Program-made: the position numbers and the translations under genes
Shown: positions 12,538-16,491 of the stretch, one piece after another
How positions within the stretch are numbered: the first letter of the stretch is position 1
Layout: every line of letters begins with the position of its first letter
Origin: Cycloclasticus sp.
Lineage (GTDB): Bacteria; Pseudomonadota; Gammaproteobacteria; Methylococcales; Cycloclasticaceae
Length of the DNA: 46,684 nucleotides
Direction of reading: 5' to 3'
Assembly (NCBI GenBank): GCA_012959695.1
Contig: DUCS01000029.1
Location: forward strand, 1 to 46,684
The notes under the pieces: model-generated
Database searches by the model: none
What the model was told of the DNA's origin: nothing
What the model saw: only the letters and a program-made list of their open reading frames with translations

Positions 12538-12566
12538 TTGACGAATGTTTCATGGTAATATATAAC
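12538..12566 (+). promoter_or_regulatory. strong sigma70-type promoter in a gene-free gap
   Basis: TTGACG at 12538-12543 and TATAAC at 12561-12566 are separated by exactly 17 bases, each matching consensus in five of six positions. It is the best-looking promoter I found in the window, and it does not point at a nearby coding start: the next plus-strand gene begins 244 bases on, after an intrinsic terminator. Confidence 0.75.
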
Positions 12567-12572
12567 CTTTAT

Positions 12573-12662
12573 TACATTGTTACAGTAGCTTTGCTAAGCA
12601 ACCCTACTGGTTCTAATAATGTTCCCCTTCTCTTGGCGACTCTTTATGGGTCGCCTTTTTTT
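12573..12662 (+). ncRNA. putative trans-acting small RNA, about 90 nt
   Basis: Starting about seven bases after the -10 box, the transcript would fold as one nested hairpin. ACATTGTTA (12574-12582) pairs with TAATAATGT (12614-12622) with one G-U pair. CAGTAG (12583-12588) pairs with CTACTG (12604-12609). TTGC (12591-12594) pairs with GCAA (12598-12601). A C/U-rich single strand, TCCCCTTCTCTT at 12623-12634, follows, and then the terminator stem and T7 run. That is the classic layout of an Hfq-dependent base-pairing sRNA whose C/U-rich stretch could pair with ribosome binding sites. No convincing open frame is present. I do not recognise it as a known family. It lies in the 357-base gap between the hydrolase and the PQQ-associated genes. 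Confidence 0.6.
12635..12662 (+). terminator. intrinsic terminator of the small RNA
   Basis: GGCGAC (12635-12640) pairs with GTCGCC (12650-12655) around a 9-base loop and is followed at once by seven Ts (12656-12662). It can only belong to a transcript that begins inside the preceding gap, because the upstream gene is on the other strand. Confidence 0.88.
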
Positions 12663-12809: not shown

Positions 12810-13979
12810 ATGATTAAAAGACTAAGAAAACATGTGCTTGTGTCCCTGCTTGTCAGCTTCTCGGTAATGGCTCAAGCTGGGAACGTTAATATTAAACTGG
12901 CTTTTTTAACCGAAAAATTAGCAACGCCGCCGGCGCTTTCTAACCTTGACCCTGTGTTAACGGATGAAGGCATTCAAGGGGTTGTATTGGGCATTAAAGA
13001 CAACAACACAACAGGCAAATTTACCGGCCATACATTTCACTTGAAGCATATGGACGTGCCTGTGGGTGGTAACGTGCTCCAATCATTCCAAAAGTTAGTG
13101 GCTGATGGTTACGAATACATCATCACAGATGTCCAATCTGCCACATTAAAGACGCTTTCAACCTCACCTAGCGCGAAGGCAGCCTTGTTATTTAATGTGT
13201 CTGCAAGCCATAACGTTTTAAGAAATAAAAACTGCAGTGCTAATACATTTCACCTGATTCCCAGTGATGCAATGAAGGCCGATGCCTTGGCCCAGTTTAT
13301 GTTAAAAAAACGTTGGAATAAGTGGTTTCTCGTTAAAGGTACCGATGTTGATGACATGCGCTTTGCTAAAGCCCTAAAGCGTTCAGCTAAGCGTTTTGGC
13401 GTTAAAATTGTGGAAGAAAAAGAATGGAAGTTTGACCACGATGCGCGCAGAACGGCGCAGGCAGATATTCCGGTGTTTACTCAAGGGTCCGATTACGATG
13501 TGTTAGTGGTGGCGGATGTTAAAGGCTTGTTTGGTGAATATTTAGCCATGAACACGTGGTTACCTCGCCCCATTATCGGCACGCAAGGCCTTGTTCCAAG
13601 GGCGTGGCATAGAACGCATGAACGTTGGGGTGCGGTGCAAATGCAAAACCGTTTTTATGAACAGGCGGGGCGTTGGATGAACGATGTGGATTATGCCTCG
13701 TGGTTAGCTGTTCGTGCGGTGGGTGAAGCAGTAACGCGCGCAAACAGCGTGGAGGTGGCCGACATTAAAAGCTTTATGCTCAGTGATGAGTTTAGCCTCG
13801 CGGGTTTTAAAGGCGTTAAGTTGACATTTAGGCATTGGAATCAACAATTAAGGCAACCCGTTTTGCTGGCAACGGCGCGTTCAATCGTCTCGGTTATGCC
13901 GCATAAAGAATTCTTACATCCGCGCACTTACCTCGATACGCTGGGGTATGATAGCCCGGAATCTACTTGCGAATTTTAA
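12810..13979 (+). CDS. ABC transporter periplasmic binding protein of the PQQ-alcohol-dehydrogenase-associated system
   Basis: A 389-residue exported protein: a signal peptide ends near MAQA-GN, and the mature part has the type I periplasmic-binding (LivJ-like) fold, with VNIKLAFLTE at the start, a central hinge and AVGEAVTRANSV near residue 310. It fits the family found beside PQQ-dependent alcohol dehydrogenases (the PQQ_ABC_bind type). It heads a four-gene operon, with the YVTN-propeller gene only 3 bases downstream. The ligand is unknown; despite the name, the cognate ATPase and permease resemble exporters, so this protein may act as a periplasmic sensor or partner rather than an uptake receptor. 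The family call rests largely on the full gene context. Confidence 0.82.
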   Translation: MIKRLRKHVLVSLLVSFSVMAQAGNVNIKLAFLTEKLATPPALSNLDPVLTDEGIQGVVLGIKDNNTTGKFTGHTFHLKHMDVPVGGNVLQSFQKLVADGYEYIITDVQSATLKTLSTSPSAKAALLFNVSASHNVLRNKNCSANTFHLIPSDAMKADALAQFMLKKRWNKWFLVKGTDVDDMRFAKALKRSAKRFGVKIVEEKEWKFDHDARRTAQADIPVFTQGSDYDVLVVADVKGLFGEYLAMNTWLPRPIIGTQGLVPRAWHRTHERWGAVQMQNRFYEQAGRWMNDVDYASWLAVRAVGEAVTRANSVEVADIKSFMLSDEFSLAGFKGVKLTFRHWNQQLRQPVLLATARSIVSVMPHKEFLHPRTYLDTLGYDSPESTCEF

Positions 13980-13982
13980 GTT

Positions 13983-14939
13983 ATGAATAAATTATATTTA
14001 ACCCTGTTTTTGTTTGTTTGCTCACCGTTTGTTGTGGCTGACACCTTGTACATTACTTTGGAAAAAGACAATGCCTTGGCTGTTGTGGATGGTGAAACCG
14101 GTAAGTTATTGAAAACAGTACCGTTGGGTCAGCGTCCCCGTGGCGTTGCTTTAAGTAAAGATCAAACGTTGTTGTATGTTGCTGCGAGTGATGACGACAC
14201 GATACAAATTTTAGATATTAAGACGCTGAAGGTCATCGGGGAATTACCGTCTGGTGAGGATCCGGAGTTATTCAAAATTCACCCGAATGGTCGCTTGCTG
14301 TACGTGTCGAATGAAGATGACAATATTGTGACGGTGATTGATTTACAGAAAAAAACCGCGTTAGCAGAAATAGCAGTAGGCGTTGAACCGGAAGGTATTG
14401 CCATCAGTCGTGATGGAAAGTGGGTGGTGAATACCTCAGAAACGACCAATATGGTGCATTGGATAGACCCAATGGATCAACAAATTAAAGAAAACACCTT
14501 AGTTGATCCACGCCCAAGAGCGGCTGAATTTTCGGTCAATAACGAATGGCTGTTTGTAACGTCGGAAATCGCCGGTTCTTTGTCACGCCTCGATGTGGCA
14601 ACTAAGAAAATCACGGGTAAGTTGCACTTTAAAATCCCCGGTGTGGATAAAGAGCTAATCCAGCCTGTTGGCGTATTAGCGCACCCGAATAATACACTGT
14701 TGTTTGTGGCGTTGGGCCCAGCGAACAGAGTTGCCGTGGTGGATATACAATCCATGGAAGTAACAAAATATTTATTGGTTGGCCAGCGCGTTTGGAACTT
14801 GGCTTTTTCACCCGATTTAAAGCGCCTTTACACCACCAATGGAGTGAGTAACGACATTTCAATAATTGATGTGGATGATTTAAAAGTCACCAAATCGATT
14901 CGGGTGGGCCATTATCCTTGGGGTATTGCGGTTAAATAA
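13983..14939 (+). CDS. YVTN beta-propeller protein, PQQ-associated
   Basis: A 318-residue periplasmic protein: signal peptide to about residue 19 (FVVA-DTLY), then about seven repeats of roughly 42 residues carrying the YVTN pattern (LLYVAASDDDTIQILD, LLYVSNEDDNIVTVID, LLFVALGPANRVAVVD, RLYTTNGVSNDISIID). These form a seven-bladed propeller. Homologues travel with PQQ-dependent alcohol dehydrogenase ABC systems, where their role is not established; substrate or cofactor delivery has been suggested. It overlaps the ATPase gene by one base (TAATG). No cytochrome c motif is present. Confidence 0.88.
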   Translation: MNKLYLTLFLFVCSPFVVADTLYITLEKDNALAVVDGETGKLLKTVPLGQRPRGVALSKDQTLLYVAASDDDTIQILDIKTLKVIGELPSGEDPELFKIHPNGRLLYVSNEDDNIVTVIDLQKKTALAEIAVGVEPEGIAISRDGKWVVNTSETTNMVHWIDPMDQQIKENTLVDPRPRAAEFSVNNEWLFVTSEIAGSLSRLDVATKKITGKLHFKIPGVDKELIQPVGVLAHPNNTLLFVALGPANRVAVVDIQSMEVTKYLLVGQRVWNLAFSPDLKRLYTTNGVSNDISIIDVDDLKVTKSIRVGHYPWGIAVK

Positions 14940-15685
14940 TGAGTGATTCTTCAAGCGGCTCACTGGTAGTCAAAACGCTCAGTTATGCCTATGGTAATAA
15001 GGCGGCGTTACAACATATTGATTTTTTCATTGCGCCGGGTGAATGCACTATTTTACTGGGGCCAAATGGCGCGGGTAAATCAACGCTGTTTTCATTGATT
15101 ACCAATTTATATAACAGCCGGGATGGGCAGATTCTCATTAATGGCTTGGACATTAAAAAAAAATCCTGTGCGGCGTTGGCGCATTTAGGCGTGGTGTTTC
15201 AGCAAACAACCTTAGACATGGATTTAAGTGTATTGCAAAATTTGCATTATCACGCCGCCTTACACGGTATGACACGCAAACAAGCAACGCTTCGCATTGA
15301 TGAAGAATTAGAACGTCAAGGTATGCGCGAGCGCCAGCAAGAGAAGGTTCGTCAGCTAAATGGTGGGCATCGCCGCCGTGTGGAAATTGCGCGTGCGTTA
15401 TTGCATAAACCGTCTTTATTGCTGCTAGATGAGCCAACGGTTGGCTTAGATGTTCCAAGCCGTAAAGGTATTGTCGAACACGTTCATGCCTTATGTGAAA
15501 ACGATAACTTGTCGGTTTTATGGGCAACGCATTTGATTGATGAAATTTACCCGTCCGATAAGCTAATTGTGTTGCACCAAGGTGAAATTAAAGCGCAAGG
15601 TGCAGTGAATGATGTGTGTAATGGGCAATCAGCAGATGATATTTCACAAGCGTTTCAGCAGTTAACGCAGGCTAAAGCATCATGA
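14939..15685 (+). CDS. ABC transporter ATP-binding protein, PQQ-associated system
   Basis: A 248-residue ATPase of the NodI/CcmA-like exporter class. Walker A is GPNGAGKST near residue 40, the signature is a variant LNGGHRRR near 139 in place of LSGGQ, Walker B is LLLLDEPTVGLD near 160, and the switch His is in WATHLIDE near 193. It overlaps the permease gene by 4 bases. Proteins of this type pair with ABC-2 permeases, normally for export. In pseudomonads the corresponding genes lie by the ped/exa alcohol oxidation cluster. Confidence 0.88.
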   Translation: MSDSSSGSLVVKTLSYAYGNKAALQHIDFFIAPGECTILLGPNGAGKSTLFSLITNLYNSRDGQILINGLDIKKKSCAALAHLGVVFQQTTLDMDLSVLQNLHYHAALHGMTRKQATLRIDEELERQGMRERQQEKVRQLNGGHRRRVEIARALLHKPSLLLLDEPTVGLDVPSRKGIVEHVHALCENDNLSVLWATHLIDEIYPSDKLIVLHQGEIKAQGAVNDVCNGQSADDISQAFQQLTQAKAS

Positions 15686-16491
15686 GATTAGGTCATGCGG
15701 TTATTGCTTTAAAAGGCATCATTAAACGCGAGCTATGGCGTTTCTTGCGTCAGCGTGAACGCTTTGTTGCAGCACTGGTTCGCCCGCTGGTTTGGTTGTT
15801 TGTATTTGCGGCGGGGTTCCGTTCCACCTTGGGCATTGCGATTATTCCACCGTATGAAACGTATATTTTGTATGAAGTGTACATTGCAGCGGGCCTTATC
15901 GGCATGATTCAACTCTTTAATGGCATGCAAAGTTCTTTGTCGATGGTGTATGACCGTGAAATGGGCAGCATGAAAACCTTATTGGTGAGTCCTTTGCCAC
16001 GTTGGTTTTTGTTGACCGGTAAGCTGTTGGCGGGAACTTCGGTGTCTATTCTTCAAGCTTACGTGTTTCTTTTAATTGCTTGGTTTTACGATATTCAAGC
16101 GCCGTTGCTAGGTTACGTCACCTTATTTCCTGCGCTGGTACTTGCGGGGTTGATGTTGGGTGCGCTGGGTATGTTGTTGTCATCCTTTATTAAACAGTTA
16201 GAAAACTTTGCGGGGGTGATGAATTTTGTTATTTTCCCGATGTTTTTTATGTCTACTGCGTTATACCCGCTGTGGAAAATTAAAGAGTCCAGTGAATTGC
16301 TACACACTTTGGCCAGCTATAACCCTTTTTCTCAAGCCGTTGAGCTGATTCGTTTTGCTTTGTATGGGCAATTTAATTTGTATGCGTTTGCCTATACGTT
16401 AGCGGCCTTTGTTGTTTTTATGGCAGTGGCTGTTTGGGGCTATAACCCATCAAAAGGCATGATGGTTAAAAAAGGCGGCGGCCCTAGGTGA
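15682..16491 (+). CDS. ABC-2 type permease, PQQ-associated (PedC-like)
   Basis: A 269-residue inner-membrane protein with six hydrophobic helices and the ABC-2 hallmark stretch [19 protein letters not shown] near residue 92. A second helical cluster has [18 protein letters not shown] near residue 195, typical of drug/polysaccharide exporter permeases. It is the last gene of the four-gene operon. Homologues are named PedC in phenylethanol degradation clusters. Direction (efflux) is inferred from the ABC-2 class; the substrate is unknown. No PQQ dehydrogenase, cytochrome or pqq biosynthesis gene is present within the window. Confidence 0.87.

Follow-up and report, generated by a model that had tools for sequence, protein, structure and literature searches.

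A predicted small RNA gene of Cycloclasticus with an exposed anti-Shine-Dalgarno segment and relatives in methanotrophs of the Methylococcales

The sRNA locus, its promoter and its predicted fold

The window analysed here is a stretch of 46,684 nt from Cycloclasticus sp. (contig DUCS01000029.1); the genome to which it belongs amounts to 1.7 Mb and is estimated to be 80% complete. Between a gene for an alpha/beta hydrolase, located on the opposite strand, and a PQQ-dependent alcohol dehydrogenase ABC cassette (profiles TIGR03863, TIGR03866, TIGR03864 and TIGR03861), it carries the following features of a putative small RNA (sRNA) gene.

12538..12543, + strand: -35 box TTGACG, read directly; TTGAC kept in 15 of 16 same-genus loci
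12549..12557, + strand: spacer element, TTC-N3-GTA in the window against the palindrome TGC-N3-GCA of relatives (alignment of 16 same-genus promoters)
12561..12566, + strand: -10 box TATAAC (TATAAT in the closest relative), from direct reading and the promoter alignment
12574..12662, + strand: predicted sRNA transcript of about 89 nt, from promoter, fold and terminator, its start placed from the -10 box; conservation ends at the T run
12574..12622, + strand: 5' hairpin with nested 9-, 6- and 4-bp arms (fold z = -6.6; outer helix conserved)
12621..12634, + strand: seed GTTCCCCTTCTCTT (GTTCTCCTCCTCTT in relatives), the most constant part of the family; 12623-12634 unpaired in the predicted fold
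12635..12662, + strand: intrinsic terminator, an 8-bp stem and T7, from the fold; 98.6% of cells paired

An initial annotation had proposed a promoter TTGACG-N17-TATAAC at this site, and both boxes are present where it placed them, separated by a spacer of 17. This promoter was missing from the output of the automatic promoter scan, in which promoter-like sites were no commoner than expected by chance; the assignment is nevertheless supported, because TTGAC is conserved at the same place in 15 of the 16 same-genus loci, the remaining one having TGGAC. The palindrome TGC-N3-GCA, situated between the -35 and -10 boxes of the relatives, is possibly the site of a regulator, i.e. an operator, which would be broken in the window, where one base has been lost in each arm. 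A different inverted repeat, of the CATAAGA-N3-TCTTATG type, lies upstream of the -10 box in the sRNA promoters of three methanotroph loci (L056, L059 and L066), and might be an activator site.

The interval 12570-12662 was folded and compared with 200 dinucleotide-preserving shuffles, giving -30.8 kcal/mol against -13.9 +/- 2.6 kcal/mol for the shuffles, none of which equalled it (z = -6.6). The predicted fold consists of a 9-bp arm (12574-12582/12614-12622), a 6-bp arm (12583-12588/12604-12609) and a 4-bp arm (12591-12594/12598-12601), followed by an unpaired C/U-rich 12-mer (12623-12634) and the 8-bp terminator stem (12635-12642/12648-12655) with its T7. The nested hairpin, C/U-rich single strand and GGCGAC/GTCGCC-T7 terminator of the initial annotation were thus all recovered at their positions. 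The seed is complementary to purine runs of the Shine-Dalgarno (SD) type, and the anti-SD motif is left unpaired, as CCCCUUCUC in the window and CUCCUCCUC in relatives. In Methylocaldum the sequence of the 5' hairpin is quite different, but the layout is the same and CUCCUCCUCUU is again exposed in the fold.

Conservation of the family and divergence of the window's copy

Compared with the closest relative, the sRNA interval shows 90.3% identity. The figures are lower for the adjoining intergenic DNA (70.2% on one side, 65.6% on the other) and for third codon positions in the two genes next to it (63.1% and 58.7%). Because an identity of 90% stands out against 66-70% in the flanking intergenic DNA, the sRNA is, on comparative grounds, a real gene. 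In BLAST, 14 of the 17 other same-genus genomes gave a hit, as did members of other families within the order, and the same core and layout were recognised in methanotrophs of the Methylococcales by BLAST, an exact-pattern scan and folding. The exact-pattern scan of named genomes returned 18 records, which belong to Cycloclasticus, to organisms with names of the Methylococcales type (Methylocaldum sp. 14B, Methylotetracoccus, Methylohalobius, Methylothermaceae, as well as MAGs) and to a few further MAGs filed under broader or other names; in one record, which bears the label Methyloversatilis, the core does not differ from that of Methylocaldum. With a covariance model built on the 45-nt core, matches at E <= 0.01 were obtained in 96 of 251 genomes from the order. 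They are strong in families f1, f4, f6 and f7; in f8 they are weak, and many of them may be terminators matched by chance. Each Cycloclasticus genome in which the gene was found has one strong copy.

Among 19 aligned distinct cores, GUUCUCCUCCUC is near-invariant, and this unpaired segment and the terminator stem are the most constant parts. The terminator stem has 98.6% standard pairs, with four of its eight pairs changed on both sides, whereas controls slid along the alignment gave 24-55%. The outer 5' helix is likewise 98.6% paired in the 16 same-genus sequences, mostly with one-sided changes and one two-sided change. The initial annotation had made its case depend on conservation of the stem pairs and of the C/U segment in relatives, and both are conserved. 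The depth of conservation, the covarying stems and the changing genomic neighbours further support its view that this is an unannotated sRNA gene, about 90 nt long, that has a promoter and a terminator of its own.

No Rfam 15 family was matched at its curated (gathering) cut-off by the window's sRNA or its relatives in a covariance-model search, in agreement with the earlier remark that no family was recognised; the sole match among the relatives' loci is a neighbouring tRNA. Matches of the window's sRNA at a permissive threshold were all far below the cut-offs of the families concerned, e.g. RF00519 suhB with 14.6 bits against a cut-off of 41. The sRNA appears to represent a genuine regulatory RNA family that no library family describes.

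The copy in the window is an outlier of this family. Its seed reads GUUCCCCUUCUC in place of the consensus GUUCUCCUCCUC, i.e. with two changes in an otherwise constant seed, the -10 box is TATAAC for TATAAT, and the spacer has TTC-N3-GTA for TGC-N3-GCA. The importance that the initial annotation gave to the C/U segment was well placed as regards the family, of which it is the most constant and probably the SD-pairing part, but the window's own segment departs from the consensus. These changes might result from retargeting, drift or an assembly error. That the family is functional while this species' copy is drifting or has been retargeted is the most serious of the rival explanations, though the odds are clearly against it: the variant seed pairs worse with the dioxygenase start regions discussed below, but the hairpins are intact, the interval retains 90% identity with that of the closest relative, the altered seed is still C/U-rich and the altered letters may be assembly errors. 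In the window's own genome, no partner matching the variant seed was found beyond the gene itself, the best other site having two mismatches.

Genomic context and a predicted facing RNA in methanotrophs

Most Cycloclasticus have these neighbouring genes in common with the window, and in f7, too, the ABC binding protein is found beside the sRNA. Since the sRNA lies on the strand of the PQQ-dependent alcohol dehydrogenase ABC operon (12810-16491), upstream of it by about 150 nt as measured from the terminator, and is followed by the ABC binding protein in both f7 genomes and most of the Cycloclasticus, it could be a cis-acting leader or attenuator, the terminator of which stops transcription early unless a signal prevents this. 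This seems improbable, as the core is kept where the flanking genes differ: in G016 (L013) they are ThiF/MoeB-like and MurJ-like, and in methanotrophs TonB-dependent-receptor-like, citrate-synthase-like or other genes precede the sRNA (all names read from translations). The most constant part is, moreover, an exposed anti-SD stretch and not the partner of an anti-terminator. A leader of this operon was therefore rejected; the element persists independently of the operon, and a trans-acting RNA is the best reading of it.

In ten methanotroph loci (L055, L056, L059, L061-L066 and L030; Methylocaldum and related organisms, Methylohalobius, Methylothermaceae and Methylotetracoccus), a second predicted RNA gene of about 170-185 nt faces the sRNA downstream, on the opposite strand. 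It has a promoter-like sequence (TGGACA, about 17 nt, TAGACT in most of the ten) and CAAAGAGGAGGA, preceded by GUCGU- or GCGU-, and then AAN triplet repeats, a hairpin and a terminator rich in GC. Over 14-17 nt, the stretch complements almost perfectly the seed and linker of the sRNA and part of the 5' arm of its terminator. Duplexes with the adjacent sRNA were calculated at -28 to -39 kcal/mol, the mean for shuffled sites being -12 to -17 kcal/mol. The partner RNA is thus probably a sponge of the sRNA in methanotrophs. The AAN triplets are of the Hfq/Crc-binding kind, by which CrcZ-type RNAs of Pseudomonas sequester Hfq/Crc; unlike CrcZ, the partner RNA has no Rfam match and carries a long complement to one sRNA.

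The 14-mer GTCAAAGAGGAGGA occurs 31 times, in 25 of the 251 genomes of the order, against five occurrences of the reversed control. In 16 genomes it lies on the opposite strand within about 350 nt of the 3' end of the sRNA (coordinates compared by hand), and in G022, G036 and G062 it is unlinked to it. Sites away from the sRNA, sometimes two per genome, were noted in G022, G028, G033, G036, G039, G048 and G051 (f6), and possibly represent conserved mRNA targets or further sponges. Exact GTCAAAGAGGAGGA is absent from all 18 Cycloclasticus genomes, and no exact match was obtained for TCAAAGAGGAGGA; with no partner found in Cycloclasticus, it is not part of the window's gene. A site AAGAGGAGGAGAA in G005, present with one mismatch in G013, was considered as a second RNA and rejected, being antisense inside a coding region.

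Candidate targets and proposed mode of action

Cycloclasticus is a main marine degrader of polycyclic aromatics. The seed was compared with the start regions of 2272 crude gene calls in a complete relative (G014), and no genome-wide excess of pairing at start sites over shuffled seeds was seen. The top of the list is rich in subunits of aromatic ring-hydroxylating dioxygenases and also includes an extradiol dioxygenase. The 44 dioxygenase genes of this genome (21 alpha, 15 beta and 8 extradiol-like) pair on average 1.03 standard deviations better than other genes, an effect that was matched by none of 100 shuffled seeds and by one of 100 seeds keeping CCUCC; this one, GUUCUCCUCCUCUUG, is by accident the sRNA's own sequence. 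These figures are post hoc, the hypothesis having been formed on G014 itself, and the genes are paralogues. Part of the effect simply reflects strong ribosome binding sites, given that the dioxygenase genes also come out above the average with control seeds (-0.55 and -0.65). In a replication with 50 non-redundant start regions from other genomes the direction was the same but the effect weak, -0.58 compared with -0.39 +/- 0.11 for CCUCC-keeping controls, 3 of 100 of which reached -0.58. Four genomes (G008, G011, G015 and G016) keep the sRNA with no such dioxygenases at the threshold used, so these genes are not its sole targets. In the window's own genome, the start region of a dioxygenase beta-subunit gene (C14:21875) contains CCAAGCGGAGGAGAATTAAGATG, with CCAAGCGGAGGAGAA before the ATG; this site also encodes the end of the alpha subunit, and its conservation is therefore confounded. 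Taken together, this is weak evidence for the aromatic ring-hydroxylating dioxygenase genes of Cycloclasticus as candidate, non-exclusive targets.

The best-supported interpretation, held with good though not full confidence, is that of a conserved trans-acting, Hfq-type base-pairing sRNA, the seed of which pairs with SD regions and blocks translation, with a decoy in methanotrophs and dioxygenase genes among the candidate targets. A sigma-70-type promoter would give rise to an RNA of about 90 nt that, judging from sequence, fold and conservation, is predicted to fold into the 5' hairpin and a terminator hairpin with a U tail, exposing between them a seed of the UUCUCCUCCUCUU type. By analogy with known anti-SD sRNAs, this seed would pair with purine-rich SD regions (GAGGAGGA) of selected mRNAs and block their translation, in Cycloclasticus perhaps those of the ring-hydroxylating dioxygenases. 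In many methanotrophs the convergent neighbour RNA, the complementarity of which was observed directly, may serve as the decoy. The sRNA has the features of the Hfq-type, namely its own promoter, an intrinsic terminator with a U tail and a conserved single-stranded seed, and Hfq itself is encoded in the window's genome (PF17209, 6.2e-30).

A wider and rather speculative reading is that of an old sRNA/anti-sRNA module of the Methylococcales, composed of an anti-SD sRNA present as a single copy, joined in many methanotrophs by a convergent sponge with Hfq-type AAN repeats, which would act as a two-RNA switch of catabolism, and from which Cycloclasticus would have kept the sRNA without the sponge and aimed it at dioxygenases. 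It seems improbable that the RNA acts mainly by binding protein, as a decoy of Hfq or of another regulator, and not by pairing with mRNA. The exposed, single-stranded C/U stretch and U tail and the lack of a genome-wide target excess in G014 would fit such a role, but the facing RNA of methanotrophs, complementary to the seed and its surroundings over 14-17 nt, points to base pairing. A small protein-coding gene, with a frame from the ATG at 12619-12621 that passes the terminator and stays open beyond the T run, was rejected as hardly credible, since the ATG is not conserved (AAAGTTC, GAAGTTC and GCAGTTC in methanotroph copies), the stems covary and conservation ends at the T run.

An anti-SD sRNA of this base-pairing type is of a known kind, and its mechanism is not new. 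SisA-D of Alphaproteobacteria (alphaR8/MmgR, Rfam RF00519 suhB) are short sRNAs, some of them side by side, which repress many mRNAs by a conserved anti-SD motif, and in Caulobacter the sponge RNA CrfA pairs with the anti-SD motif of these siblings (PMC12559287). With an exposed anti-SD motif in the sRNA and a complementary candidate sponge, CrfA and SisA-D are the closest published parallel to the partner RNA. Differences are that SisA-D belong to another bacterial class and have other hairpins, and that the candidate sponge is convergent beside the sRNA in 16 methanotroph genomes. The siblings NmsRA and NmsRB of Neisseria are metabolic sRNAs that lower translation via anti-SD sequences (PMC5362039); compared by description, they are sibling copies, whereas a Cycloclasticus genome has a single strong copy. 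The literature searched contained no account of an sRNA of this type from methanotrophs or Cycloclasticus. With a conserved sRNA of defined seed, and a sponge-like neighbour in methanotrophs, the post-transcriptional control of methane and oil metabolism becomes directly open to experiment.

Additional cores were seen at several places (L021:2906-2950, minus strand; G040:C1:326275 and 326467; G107:C1:1031565 and 1031757), either as diverged second copies near the first (f7) or as weak tandem matches (f8), and their arrangement suggests local duplication. In a class-wide scan of 274 genomes, a few of which came from the Methylococcales itself, G451 was prominent outside the order with four core-like copies, including a tandem pair; G450 was less conspicuous. 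The copies in G451 (L069 and L097), which belongs to another order of the class, carry TCTCCTCCTCTTGGCCGACC and a matching GGTCGGC terminator, and may be either distant relatives or a product of convergence.
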